Source: Alteromonadaceae bacterium M269 (GTDB lineage: Bacteria; Pseudomonadota; Gammaproteobacteria; Enterobacterales; Alteromonadaceae). From it: DNA of 64,000 nt. The stretch is taken from positions 558,001 to 622,000 of the forward strand of contig SMNZ01000002.1 in NCBI GenBank assembly GCA_004353515.1, given 5' to 3'. Positions 11,411 to 59,911 of this stretch are shown here, piece by piece (positions within the stretch are counted from its first letter, which is position 1; every line of letters begins with the position of its first letter). Under the pieces are notes generated by a model. The model made no database searches. It was not told the origin of the DNA and saw only the letters and a list, made by a program, of their open reading frames with translations. The position numbers and the translations under genes are program-made.

Positions 11411-11531
11411 AAAAACCCCCGAAAGTCGCCTTCCGAGGGTTGTTATTTTGTCCTCTGGAAGGTTACCAATAACCTTCCAGCACGAACCTGAAAGGTTATG
11501 CTACGTGGTGATGATGTACTGCTTTCAGGTT
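11411..11531 (-). promoter_or_regulatory. Histidine operon attenuator
   Basis: On the minus strand the leader holds four pairing segments. Segment one (11531-11522, inside hisL) pairs perfectly over 10 bases with 11494-11485. An 11-bp perfect hairpin follows (11480-11470 with 11465-11455, four-base loop). The terminator is CCCUCGGAAG (11438-11429) with CUUUCGGGGG (11425-11416) and a U-run at 11415-11411. CCUUCC in the middle hairpin's 3' arm can pair with GGAAGG of the terminator, giving the antiterminator. Stalling at the four His codons would decide between them. Confidence 0.88.
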
Positions 11532-23683: not shown

Positions 23684-25264
23684 TTAATGCCCAGTATCGG
23701 TACTTGGTAAGCCTGTATGATGTTCTATCAGATGCATGTCGTACAGGGTCTGTGTCATGTCAAGAAGGCCGAAATAAGTTGCTGCCAGGCCTGTTAGCGT
23801 TAACACTATAGTGTACGGAAGAGCCATATAGACCATTTTACCGTAGGACAATCTTAACAGTGGAGCTAATGCAGACGTTAGCAAGAATAAGAAAGCTGCT
23901 TGACCGTTCGGTGTCGCAACGCTAGGCAAGTTAGTACCTGTATTGATAGCCACAGCCAACATGTCGTATTGGTCACGAGTAATTGTACCGGCTTCAAGTG
24001 CTGCGCTCACTTCGGTGATGTAAACTGAGCCTACGAAAACATTATCACTCACCATAGATAGAGCGCCATTGGCAAGGTAGAACAGTATTAACTGCATTTT
24101 CCCTTCATACGTTAGTACCCAGTCAATAACTGGCTTGAACAACCCTTGGTCAACGATAACAGCTACTACGCCGAAGAAGACGCACAGTAGCGCTGTAAAA
24201 GGCAATGCTTCTTCAAATGCTTTACCTATTGCGTGTTCATCGATAACACCTGTCATTGTTGTCGCTAGTACAATAATAGATAAGCCAATTAGGCCTACAG
24301 CAGCTAGGTGAGTCGCTAAGCCAACAATTAACCAAACGGCAATAAAGCCCTGAACGATCAATTTAGCAACATCTTGCTTTGTTCTTTCTTCGTCTACGTG
24401 TTTGCTGTAATCCAATAGAACAGTTCTAACGTCTTCTGGTAACTGCGCACCGTATTCGAACCATCCAAACTTCTCGACAATAAAGGTAGTTGTTAAACCT
24501 AAAACGAATACCGGAATAGTGATAGGGCTCATGCGAAGGAAGAACTCTACGAATCCCCAACCTGCTTTTTCGGCAATAATAAGGTTCTGAGGCTCACCAA
24601 CCATAGTCATAACGCCACCGAGCGCTGTACCAATGGCCGCGTGCATCATCAAATTACGGAGGAAAGCCCTAAAGTTATCAAGGTCATCGCGTGTTAGGTG
24701 CGGTAACTCTTCATCATTTGTATGGTCGTGATCATCGTGATGGAAGTGTTTGCCGGAGGCTATTTTATGATAAATCGCGAAGAAGCCTGTTGCTACAGTA
24801 ATAATCACTGCTACTACTGTTAGTGCATCTAAGAAAGCTGATAGGAAGGCTGATGAAGCTGCAAAAGCAATTGATAACGCTATTTTGCTTCGAACCTTAG
24901 TTAACAGTTTGGTGAAAAGAAATAGTAATAAATCCTTCATAAAGAAGATGCCTGCCACCATAAAGATAAGTAACAGAACAACTTCAATGTTGACGACAAT
25001 TTCATGTTTGACATGTTCCGGCGATGTCATACCGATAAAGAGTGCTTCAAAGAGCAAGATACCACCTGGCTGAAGTGGGTAACATTTCAATGCCATTGCC
25101 AGTGTAAAAATGAATTCTAGTACTAATGCCCAACCAGCTAAATAGGGATTAAGCATGAATAAGATAGGGTTTAAAACTAAGAATGCTAAAATGGTCTGTT
25201 TATACCAAACAGGCGCATTTCCCAAGAAGTTCTTGTAAAACGCTTGCGTCATAGTCATTTGCAT
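23684..25264 (-). CDS. nhaB: Na+/H+ antiporter NhaB
   Basis: An inner-membrane sodium/proton exchanger for salt and pH homeostasis. The 526 residues have about twelve hydrophobic segments and match NhaB throughout ([76 protein letters not shown]). A His- and Asp-rich cytoplasmic loop ([14 protein letters not shown]) is present around residue 190. The start is set at the ATG at 25264, nine bases after AGGGA, rather than the adjacent TTG. A sodium-rich habitat fits this gene but does not prove it. Confidence 0.95.
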
Positions 25265-25367
25265 CAAGGAGTATCCCTGTTAGCTAAGGTAAGTATGAGT
25301 AACATTTTTAAAGCTGTAGAGGAAAAAAGCAAGGTTAATATAACTAATCAGCATATTCTTTATGGAT

Positions 25368-44820: not shown

Positions 44821-45258
44821 TTAGCTAAACATAGTGTCCTTAGAAGCTTTAGGGGCGAATACCCAACCTCCAATAATCCCTGCAACACATTGGGCAGCGA
44901 AACCCAAGGTAGAACGAGCACCTGCTATCAAAGTAACCTCAAATATGGGGAACATAGCAAGGTGAATACAAATCATAGTTAACAAGCCTGCCAACGGATA
45001 GACCCAGCGTGGCAGAAGCTTATAAAATTTCCGAATGAGACCCATAACACTAAAGCCAATAAGCAACCCTGCAGCAATGATCCCGGCGTAGGCAAAGAGT
45101 CCAAAAATATCCGAAATACTGGTTGTTACACGTGTAGATAAGGTAATTTCTGTGCCAACATCTTCTAGCCCATTCAGTACAAAGTAAGTATGAAATAAGC
45201 TTGCCAGAACGTACGTGACTAGAACTGCAGTTAGAAACCTACCGACAAGTTGCAACAT
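44821..45258 (-). CDS. Small four-helix membrane protein, unknown function
   Basis: A 145-residue hydrophobic protein with four predicted membrane segments (about 5-25, 49-72, 85-107, 117-137) and an Arg/Lys-containing cytosolic loop (RKFYKLLPRW). No motif I recognise. It diverges from the PQQ-dependent dehydrogenase gene across 109 bases and converges on the DUF418 gene. Composition is like its neighbours, so there is no sign of recent transfer. Confidence 0.68.
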   Translation of the reverse strand: MLQLVGRFLTAVLVTYVLASLFHTYFVLNGLEDVGTEITLSTRVTTSISDIFGLFAYAGIIAAGLLIGFSVMGLIRKFYKLLPRWVYPLAGLLTMICIHLAMFPIFEVTLIAGARSTLGFAAQCVAGIIGGWVFAPKASKDTMFS

Positions 45259-57258: not shown

Positions 57259-58521
57259 ATGACTTTGTTTACCGAGTACGGTTTTATACTCATTCTACTA
57301 GCCGCTTTGTTCGGCTTTTTTATGGCCTGGGGTATTGGTGCAAACGATGTTGCTAACGCTATGGGGACCTCTGTAGGTTCTAGAGCTTTAACGATAAAGC
57401 AAGCACTGATAGTGGCTGTAGTCTTTGAGTTTTCTGGCGCTTATTTAGCTGGGGGACAAGTTACATCAACTATTCGTAAAGGAATAGTTGATATCACTGC
57501 TTTTGAATCGACACCCGAACTGCTGGTGTTCGGTATGCTAGCCTCGCTTATTGCAGCTGGTGCTTGGCTTATTATTGCGTCTTGGCGTGGATGGCCAGTT
57601 TCTACGACACACTCTATCGTTGGTGCGATAGTAGGTTTTGCTGCTGTTGGCTTAGGTACAGAAGCGGTGCAATGGGGCAAAGTTGTAGAGATAGTTGGAA
57701 GTTGGGTGATAACGCCAGCTATTTCAGGGCTTATCGCTTTCGGTATTTTTGTGAGCGCGCAAAAGCTGATTTTTGATACTGCCGACCCTATTGCCAGAGC
57801 GAAGAAATGGGTCCCTGTATACATGTTCCTCTGTGGTTTTGTGATGTCACTTGTAACCATCACCAAGGGGTTGAAACATGTCGGCTTAGATATGACAGGA
57901 ACTCAATCGTTCTTTGTATCACTAGGCGTTGGCCTTGTTGTTTTGGTTATTGGTTCCGTTGTCGTTGGAAAGATGCAAGAAAACGATGAAGTTGATGACC
58001 GAGGTTTTGGTAGCTTAGAGCGTACGTTCGCGGTGTTGATGATAGTGACAGCTTGCTCGATGGCTTTCGCTCATGGCTCAAACGATGTAGCCAATGCGAT
58101 TGGTCCATTGGCCGCTGTCGTTAGTGTCGTGCAATCAGGTGGGGAGCTTGCATCTAAAGCTGCTTTAGCGTGGTGGATATTACCACTAGGTGCAATCGGT
58201 ATTGTCGTTGGTCTTGCCATGTTAGGTGCACGTGTTATTCGCACAGTTGGACAAAGAATTACCGAGTTAACACCAAGCCGAGGCTTTGCTGCTGAGATGG
58301 CAACCGCAAGTACGGTTATTCTAGCAAGTGGAACAGGTTTACCTATCTCAACGACACAAACCTTGGTAGGGGCTGTATTAGGTGTAGGTATGGCTCGAGG
58401 AATTGCAGCACTTAATCTGGGCGTAGTACGTAATATTGTTATCTCATGGATAATCACGCTGCCAATAGGTGCAGGCTTAAGTATTCTGTTCTTCTACATC
58501 ATTAGGTCTATATTCGGCTAG
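57259..58521 (+). CDS. Inorganic phosphate transporter, Pit family
   Basis: A 420-residue low-affinity phosphate (metal-phosphate) symporter of the inner membrane with about ten hydrophobic segments. The duplicated PHO4 signature is present at WGIGANDVANAMGTSVGSRA (about 23-42) and FAHGSNDVANAIGPLAAVV (about 272-291), and the two long inverted repeats flank a cytosolic loop (VVVGKMQENDEVDDRG). With the DUF47 gene upstream this is a complete Pit system, next to the high-affinity Pst genes. Confidence 0.94.
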   Translation: MTLFTEYGFILILLAALFGFFMAWGIGANDVANAMGTSVGSRALTIKQALIVAVVFEFSGAYLAGGQVTSTIRKGIVDITAFESTPELLVFGMLASLIAAGAWLIIASWRGWPVSTTHSIVGAIVGFAAVGLGTEAVQWGKVVEIVGSWVITPAISGLIAFGIFVSAQKLIFDTADPIARAKKWVPVYMFLCGFVMSLVTITKGLKHVGLDMTGTQSFFVSLGVGLVVLVIGSVVVGKMQENDEVDDRGFGSLERTFAVLMIVTACSMAFAHGSNDVANAIGPLAAVVSVVQSGGELASKAALAWWILPLGAIGIVVGLAMLGARVIRTVGQRITELTPSRGFAAEMATASTVILASGTGLPISTTQTLVGAVLGVGMARGIAALNLGVVRNIVISWIITLPIGAGLSILFFYIIRSIFG

Positions 58522-58549: not shown

Positions 58550-58582
58550 AAGCCCCATATCTGCGAAGAGTGGGGCTTTTTT
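58550..58582 (+). terminator. Terminator after pit
   Basis: AAGCCCCA (58550-58557) and TGGGGCTT (58571-58578) form an 8-bp stem and are followed by a T-run to 58582. The remaining spacer to the small RNA candidate (58583-58830) has one CAGTCT/AGACTG hairpin at 58630-58646 and no gene. Confidence 0.9.
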
Positions 58583-58842
58583 GTATGCTTAGCTAAATCA
58601 GGCTATGAATGTTCGGAAAAGTAATTGGGCAGTCTGAATAAGACTGTGTACAAGTGTATTAAAATAAATCAGATGTATTGTGGGTATTTTATTTGGCGGT
58701 TGTTAATTGAGTGAATGCAATTTGAGCAGTAAATGACTAGTTCGCAACCGTTTGCATGTGTTTCGATGACATTCGTCCCACGTTATAGTTATTTCACCAC
58801 TTCACAATACTTTTGTCACAATTAGCCACCTATAATACCAAA

Positions 58843-58934
58843 GTCGGGAGTAGTGACCCGTAGCATGCATATTCTACGAATGTGTATTGTTTCCTTGAAT
58901 ATAGGGCTTTACGTTTTGTAAAGCCCTTTTTTTA
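58843..58934 (+). ncRNA. Candidate small regulatory RNA
   Basis: A perfect -10 box TATAAT (58831-58836) with CC before it would start RNA near 58843. The -35 region is poor. The predicted transcript of about 90 bases has CGGG/CCCG (58845-58848 with 58857-58860) or the overlapping CGTAG/CTACG (58859-58863 with 58874-58878), then an unpaired stretch, and ends in a strong terminator: AGGGCTTTAC (58903-58912), five-base loop, GTAAAGCCCT (58918-58927) and Ts to 58933. No reading frame longer than a few codons is present. No known RNA family was recognised. Confidence 0.5.
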
Positions 58935-59092: not shown

Positions 59093-59911
59093 ATGACGGA
59101 ACAAATAAAAATTGTCCTTGTCGATGATGAGCCTTTAGCACGCCAGGGACTTCAACTCAGATTAGAAAGCTATAAGTGTATTGATGTCGTTGCACAGGCT
59201 CATGATGGCGTGGACGCGTTACAGGTTATTTTATCCTACCAACCTGATGTCGTTTTTCTCGATATTGAAATGCCAGGCGTGAACGGTTTTGAGCTCGTTG
59301 AAATGCTTCAAGCTCAGTGTGAAAAGTTTCCTTATATCGTCTTTATTACAGCTTATGAGGACTTCGCCTGCCAGGCATATGAAAAGAGTGCAACAGATTA
59401 TCTGCTTAAGCCAGTTTCAACCGAAAGGCTAAACAGTTGTATTGATAAATTAAAAGCAAAGATTCAAGAGGCCGACGCACTTAAACAGAGAGCTCATTTA
59501 GAAGGTTTGTTGCAGCGTAAGACTGGGCATACTCTAACGCATTTTATTGAGTCGTTAGAGCAGCAATCGCAGATAGATGATGACAATGGTGTTTTGTCGG
59601 TTAAAAGTGGTACTGAGTGGCTAAGAGTTAAAATGGACACTATTGATTGGATAGAAGCTGCTGGAGATTATATGTGTCTGCACACCACCGAAGGGCAGTT
59701 AATCATTCGTAAAACTTTAAAGGAATTAGAGCAACTGTTGAATAGTCGCATGTTTCCTCGTGTTAATCGCTCCGCCATAGTTAATGTCGCTAAGGTTGTT
59801 AAGTTAACACCTAACTCTAATGGAGAGTATGTTGCTTTACTGACAACTGGGGACAAAGTGAAGGTTGGGCGAAAATACAGAACGAATGTCACAGAGTTAA
59901 GAAGTGCCTAA
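59093..59911 (+). CDS. LytTR-family response regulator
   Basis: A 272-residue two-component regulator with a receiver domain (phosphoacceptor D57 in VVFLDIEMPG, lysine in LLKPVSTERL) and, after a helical linker (about 120-160), a LytTR DNA-binding domain (VLSVKSGTEWLRVKMDTIDWIEAAGDYMCLHTTEGQLIIRKTLKELEQLL, then FPRVNRSAIVNVAKVVKL). It is of the AlgR/YpdB class. No histidine kinase gene is adjacent. The ATG has no clear ribosome site. Confidence 0.93.
   Translation: MTEQIKIVLVDDEPLARQGLQLRLESYKCIDVVAQAHDGVDALQVILSYQPDVVFLDIEMPGVNGFELVEMLQAQCEKFPYIVFITAYEDFACQAYEKSATDYLLKPVSTERLNSCIDKLKAKIQEADALKQRAHLEGLLQRKTGHTLTHFIESLEQQSQIDDDNGVLSVKSGTEWLRVKMDTIDWIEAAGDYMCLHTTEGQLIIRKTLKELEQLLNSRMFPRVNRSAIVNVAKVVKLTPNSNGEYVALLTTGDKVKVGRKYRTNVTELRSA

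Follow-up and report, generated by a model that had tools for sequence, protein, structure and literature searches.

A conserved small RNA gene of the Alteromonadaceae with a fixed operator-like promoter, frequently found beside LytTR response regulator genes

The locus between pit and the LytTR gene

We have analyzed a stretch of 64 kb from Alteromonadaceae bacterium M269 (hereafter the window), in which the pit gene ends at position 58521 and is followed by a likely terminator of its own, a small RNA gene and a gene coding for a LytTR response regulator (Table 1). The RNA gene lies behind a TATAAT, is about 90 nt long and non-coding, and consists of a pair of hairpins, a C/U-rich linker that is single-stranded, and an intrinsic terminator. 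An earlier note on this DNA had proposed a trans-acting small RNA here, starting from the perfect TATAAT and a strong terminator with a U run. Both are present, and the terminator (11 pairs followed by a T run) was also picked up independently of folding. The two overlapping stems described in the same note are instead consecutive hairpins. The approximately 90 bases located 3' of the TATAAT fold at -30.1 kcal/mol, against a mean of -16.6 in 200 dinucleotide shuffles (z -4.6), and none of the 200 was equally low.

Table 1. Position of the RNA gene, its promoter elements and the flanking features in the window
Feature	Position	Strand	Basis or remark
Likely terminator of pit, separate from that of the RNA	58550..58582	+	AAGCCCC...GGGGCTT then T run, read from the sequence
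Half-site 1 of the direct repeat (ATTCGTCCCAC)	58771..58781	+	Matrix trained without the window
Half-site 2 (TTTCACCACTT; family consensus TTTCGTCACAA)	58792..58802	+	21 bp further, in register in the 49-place comparison
-10 element TATAAT	58831..58836	+	Without recognisable -35
Small RNA gene	58843..58933	+	Start placed from the -10 spacing and the first conserved base
Hairpin 1, CGGG-AGUAGUGA-CCCG, loop word UAGUGA	58845..58860	+	Folding, compensatory changes
Hairpin 2, variable loop, conserved AUACAU/AUGUAU-type stem	58862..58891	+	Folding, alignments
Conserved linker rich in C and U, UUGUUUCC(U/C)(U/G)G; largely single-stranded and the proposed site of pairing	58888..58902	+	
Intrinsic terminator, stem 58903-58927 then U run	58903..58933	+	Terminator-site search, folding
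LytTR response regulator gene, next gene downstream	59093..59911	+	Pfam Response_reg 4.2e-24, LytTR 1.8e-20

Conservation of the RNA and of its promoter

Using the 161 bases of the window alone, BLASTN detected one copy in its own genome and matches in 3 of 59 relatives (own included). Among 395 genomes of the family, 19 matched at E ≤ 0.01 (best E 3.2e-10 and 8.4e-10), 11 of them (the own genome and 10 others) over the core and 8 over terminator-like or short stretches only. When named genomes were scanned with a degenerate pattern, 22 places matched, of which 17 belong to Alteromonadaceae (Bowmanella, Paraglaciecola, Aliiglaciecola, Lacimicrobium, Aestuariibacter, Alteromonas oceanisediminis and other members), while 5 from other groups were set aside as chance by their flanks. 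With a covariance model built from 19 sequences the RNA was located at 49 places, spread over at least 48 of the 395 family genomes and 13 of 52 genera. The 48 genomes are a lower bound because few candidates were scored per genome, and the number arises partly by construction because many of the 19 model sequences come from the same genomes. The window copy, whose sequence is included in the model, matched with an E of 1.1e-10 and was single in its genome. In a scan of 394 genomes from the order, a second covariance model matched 7, every one in Alteromonadaceae; it also matched 7 of 36 relatives and none of the 14 relatives outside the family. One genome (G098) carries two copies (L080 and L090), one at each of the two types of LytTR locus described below. 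At one place, L082, the covariance match was misregistered; an apparent GTTGG...CCAAC hairpin and a TATAAT upstream can be recognised there, with extra sequence between them. No BLASTN match was obtained in plasmids and no pattern match in viral contigs, and we found no paper describing the RNA at 58843-58933 among the titles and abstract beginnings of the open-licence literature.

All 19 sequences, folded singly, gave hairpin 1, hairpin 2, an open linker and the terminator. In their MAFFT alignment 98.2% of 285 cells pair, against at most 58.2% in slid controls, and 23 two-sided changes were counted against 8.2 in shuffled alignments; the number of pairs with a two-sided change was 4, not above the shuffles (3.8). 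A larger alignment of 48 distinct rows, which was fitted to the covariance model and leans towards it, showed two-sided change in 9 of the 15 modelled pairs against 3.7 when shuffled, the shuffle controls of both alignments ignoring sequence relatedness in part. This is the covariation in related genomes that the note had named as a check. Hairpin 1 carries compensatory changes, e.g., C-G to U-A, and its loop word UAGUGA is present in 43 of the 49 places. The linker UGUAUUGUUUCC is invariant across the 19 sequences and its UUCC.. part is unpaired in the 19 folds; over the 49 places most have a core of the type UCC(U/C)NG, with UCCUGG at 27, UCCCUG at 10 and variant forms at most of the rest. 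The fold of the RNA is under selection.

In 46 of the 49 copies the upstream region contains a direct repeat of two half-sites, GTTTATCCCA-N11-TTCGTCACA; its period is 21 bp, its centre lies near -56, and its end is about 41 bases away from the inferred RNA start. In a leave-one-out analysis that kept all 49 copies, 46 had a p ≤ 0.005 and 47 had the same distance within 2 bases. The training of the half-site matrix omitted L082, L085 and L088, although they are kept in the denominator of 49, and these are the three copies lacking a significant repeat (L082 being the misregistered match). The matrix trained without the window gave a score of 18.7 to the two-half-site stretch at 58771, with the next best on either strand of the 64 kb at 7.7, and none of 100 shuffles reached the window score (maximum 17.1), even if the second half-site is degenerate here and weaker than the family consensus. 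Over 48 copies (L082 omitted) the -10 was conserved with consensus TAnACT, and matches to a -35 were no better than shuffled. In the window the TATAAT has no sigma-70-like -35 partner and was not among the 13 promoter-like sites found. A conserved -10 with no -35 is what would be expected for an activator-dependent promoter. The fixed operator-like promoter of the RNA is a new finding.

On account of this conservation, covariation and conserved promoter, it is strongly supported that 58843-58933 is a real small regulatory RNA gene, conserved in Alteromonadaceae and previously uncatalogued. Computation has identified the features of a trans-acting bacterial sRNA, i.e., its own promoter, a conserved fold, an intrinsic terminator and the lack of coding capacity. 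The small RNA gene that was claimed in the note stands, beyond chance also by the window-only BLASTN homologs, and its action in trans is a prediction. The note had contemplated that the hairpin could be a leftover terminator of pit; this is excluded, because pit has its own likely terminator and there are homologs without pit. The neighbourhood of phosphate genes had also invited, with caution, a Pho link, which we have rejected since pit is the upstream neighbour in one of the 49 places, the window itself, and pairing of the linker with the pit start was no better than in shuffles. In agreement with the note, no Pho box was seen by eye at the promoter when compared with its consensus, so that neither the box nor the phosphate-gene association of a Pho regulon member was found. 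That the RNA stands near phosphate genes here is a chance feature of this one genome.

The association with LytTR regulators

The sites bound by LytTR proteins are described as consisting of two repeats of 9–11 nt with spacers of 11–13 nt and as having no common consensus (PMC4847170). The RNA promoter has this layout (10 nt, N11, 9–10 nt) at a fixed position in 46 of 49 copies. The binding core given for AlgR of Pseudomonas aeruginosa is CCGTTCGTC (PMC4064291), which shares TTCGTC, the half-site core of the RNA promoter, with the second half-site; AlgR sites do not always occur as pairs with such spacing, whereas the RNA promoter has pairs with a fixed 21-bp period.

The gene content points in the same direction. 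The first gene to follow on the RNA strand codes for a LytTR response regulator in 30 of the 49 places, mostly 20–230 nt 3' of the RNA and at two unrelated loci. Thirteen of these 30 places come after a DUF3718 gene, one after the pit of the window and 16 after genes unlabelled in that count, one of which reads, by look, as a putative TonB-type receptor. An adjacent LytTR gene is lacking in 19 of the 49 places; at least 9 of the 49 copies face a convergent gene, and the next gene is LrgA in 3 and a CheX-type regulator in 5. The view of the note that no nearby gene explains the RNA was thus partly right, but the frequent LytTR neighbour and the LytTR-like repeats in the promoter have to be added to it. 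A conserved order DUF3718 - sRNA - LytTR - LrgA - LrgB - CheX-type response regulator was observed at L072, L074 and L085. No mention of DUF3718 was found in the open-licence literature.

The same half-sites appear before one type of regulator gene. In the regulator-promoter regions of 15 LytTR-kinase loci, which had no part in the training of the matrix, we counted 39 half-sites on the sense strand against 6.9 in shuffled sequences (maximum 15 in 300 shuffles) and none on the other strand; this count refers to 15 loci of a single regulator type, the window-type loci L051, L056, L069, L072 and L083 having been left unscored. Just before the regulator of this type there are as many as four half-sites, at spacings of 20, 22 and 21 bp, likely reflecting autoregulation. 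At L045, L047, L052, L053, L062, L066 and others the half-sites cluster around a TGTATATT-like word that lies 3' of the sRNA, just before the LytTR-kinase operon. Such arrays were absent before 30 LytTR genes from genomes mostly without an adjacent one, and the LytTR gene of the window has only two upstream half-sites above the cut-off, not at array spacing.

Of 26 sRNA-bearing genomes, 15 matched the array-bearing regulator type at E ≤ 1e-30 (5 of them with at least 45% identity) and 11 lacked it at this threshold; among 20 genomes where no sRNA was found, 2 matched. Regulators of the window type were present in 17 of 17 genomes (16 with the sRNA, and G071, where none was detected), at paralog-level identity. 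No single cognate LytTR paralog tied to the site was found and the co-occurrence with the RNA is not clean. Since no one regulator explains all copies, we infer that the RNA is LytTR-driven from the layout and the association.

Proposed mode of action and known systems

We think it rather probable that a LytTR response regulator activates transcription of the sRNA, which then base-pairs with the ribosome-binding sites of mRNAs. The promoter, having a -10 and no working -35, would depend on a LytTR-type regulator that binds the two direct half-sites. Once this regulator is active, the RNA would be made and would end at its own terminator, and the single-stranded linker UUGUUUCCUUG would pair with ribosome-binding sites, changing translation; the UAGUGA loop of hairpin 1 may perhaps pair with them too. 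Because the linker resembles an anti-Shine-Dalgarno sequence, translational control in trans appears to be the most likely mode.

Several searches for partners were carried out. Complementary sites near an ATG, in 13 genomes, numbered 21 against 8 in the control and showed no recurrence; 4 of the 21 were judged from the matched letters to be the RNA itself, and the only clear gene start was that of one 323-aa frame (L103). An 18-base complement with up to 3 mismatches gave 88 matches in 12 genomes, 12 of them the RNA itself, leaving 76 non-self against 65 in the control, with no recurrent gene start. Pairing with the downstream gene at 22 loci gave no consistent signal. When the linker was confronted with 52 open frames of the window, three had a z below -2.5, none of them in the pst-pit-LytTR block. 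These are the starts of 44821-45258, 1213-2592 and 23684-25267, all on the minus strand (z -3.6, -2.8 and -2.7), which we regard as weak candidate targets.

A LytTR gene following so often, on the same strand and at short distance, would also fit an attenuated 5' leader of the downstream regulator operon, with the terminator as a cis switch and the free RNA as a by-product. We consider this role improbable because the gene behind the RNA is convergent in at least 9 of the 49 places, and in others it is LrgA or of the CheX type. Besides, inspection of the folds showed no conserved alternative to the terminator stem, and immediately before the regulator of the array-bearing loci there is another, distinct cluster of half-sites with a likely promoter. 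The window copy contains an 18-codon ATG frame (MHILRMCIVSLNIGLYVL) that could make the RNA a small mRNA or a dual-function RNA encoding a short peptide, but neither frames nor products are conserved across the 49 copies and 4 of them have no ATG in the scanned part; this reading is very improbable and we have rejected it, in line with the absence of coding potential that the note had reported for these bases.

The lack of targets in the mRNA searches would agree with an RNA that titrates an RNA-binding protein and pairs with no mRNA. Against it, the best conserved parts are the single-stranded linker and the loop, the usual pairing regions, and we give titration a low probability; a CsrA sponge in particular is unlikely since the Bowmanella-type copies (GUUGGCGUAG) have, on inspection, no GGA in hairpin 1. 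It could also be that the RNA family and the direct repeats are real and the activator is not a LytTR protein, as the unclean co-occurrence with any LytTR paralog and the shared layout, not one consensus, of LytTR sites (PMC4847170) would allow. We hold this to be unlikely, though not negligibly so, given that the repeat length, the spacing, the position near -56 and the TTCGTC core fit the LytTR and AlgR descriptions and that the same half-sites precede the LytTR-kinase operon.

A base-pairing sRNA driven by a LytTR regulator, the reading that we prefer, has parallels among Gram positives. Two of the regulators concerned, VirR and that of the Fas system, belong to the LytTR proteins, and RNAIII is a regulatory RNA much larger than the one of about 90 nt described here. 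In Staphylococcus aureus, LytTR direct repeats drive a regulatory RNA beside regulator genes, the AgrA repeats being centred near -60 (near -56 here) in promoters with poor -35/-10 spacing, one of which makes RNAIII, according to the promoter data in PMC4227749; the difference is that RNAIII encodes a peptide and belongs to a Gram positive, and that binding to the half-sites here is predicted. According to PMC4691137, the response regulator VirR of Clostridium perfringens activates the sRNA VR-RNA, and FasX of Streptococcus pyogenes is an sRNA pairing through CU-rich stretches, although VR-RNA has 386 nt, the phylum is another, and targets are known there and none was found here.

By analogy, the paired promoter switch suggests a possible Gram negative counterpart of these regulator-plus-RNA pairs. 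With slightly less than even confidence, we propose that the LytTR regulator and an effector sRNA form a co-inherited module in Gram negative marine bacteria, a counterpart of AgrA-RNAIII, in which the RNA has moved between two LytTR loci (one with LrgAB-type genes, the other with a TonB-receptor/kinase operon) and has kept the regulator-binding promoter. If the LytTR link is true, the regulator-to-sRNA wiring of Gram positive quorum and virulence systems would also occur in marine Gammaproteobacteria, providing a Gram negative parallel to AgrA-RNAIII and VirR-VR-RNA, and the LrgAB and TonB-type receptor neighbours would hint at the sensing of nutrients or carbon overflow.

Whatever the activator, an sRNA family absent from Rfam 15 is added, and the strict conservation of its operator-like promoter allows the regulator to be sought directly. 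At a permissive threshold the nearest resemblance in that database was RF00519 (suhB/mmgR), an alphaproteobacterial RNA with a UUUCCU-type stretch before a GGGC...GCCC terminator; the window scored 27.8 bits, below the gathering cut-off of 41, which none of the 19 homolog loci reached. No family reached its cut-off for the RNA in the scans of the window and the 19 loci, where the sole hits, a His leader and two tRNAs, lay outside it. The histidine operon leader (RF00514, 58.3 bits) lies at 11411-11517 of the window, on the minus strand and far from the RNA gene.
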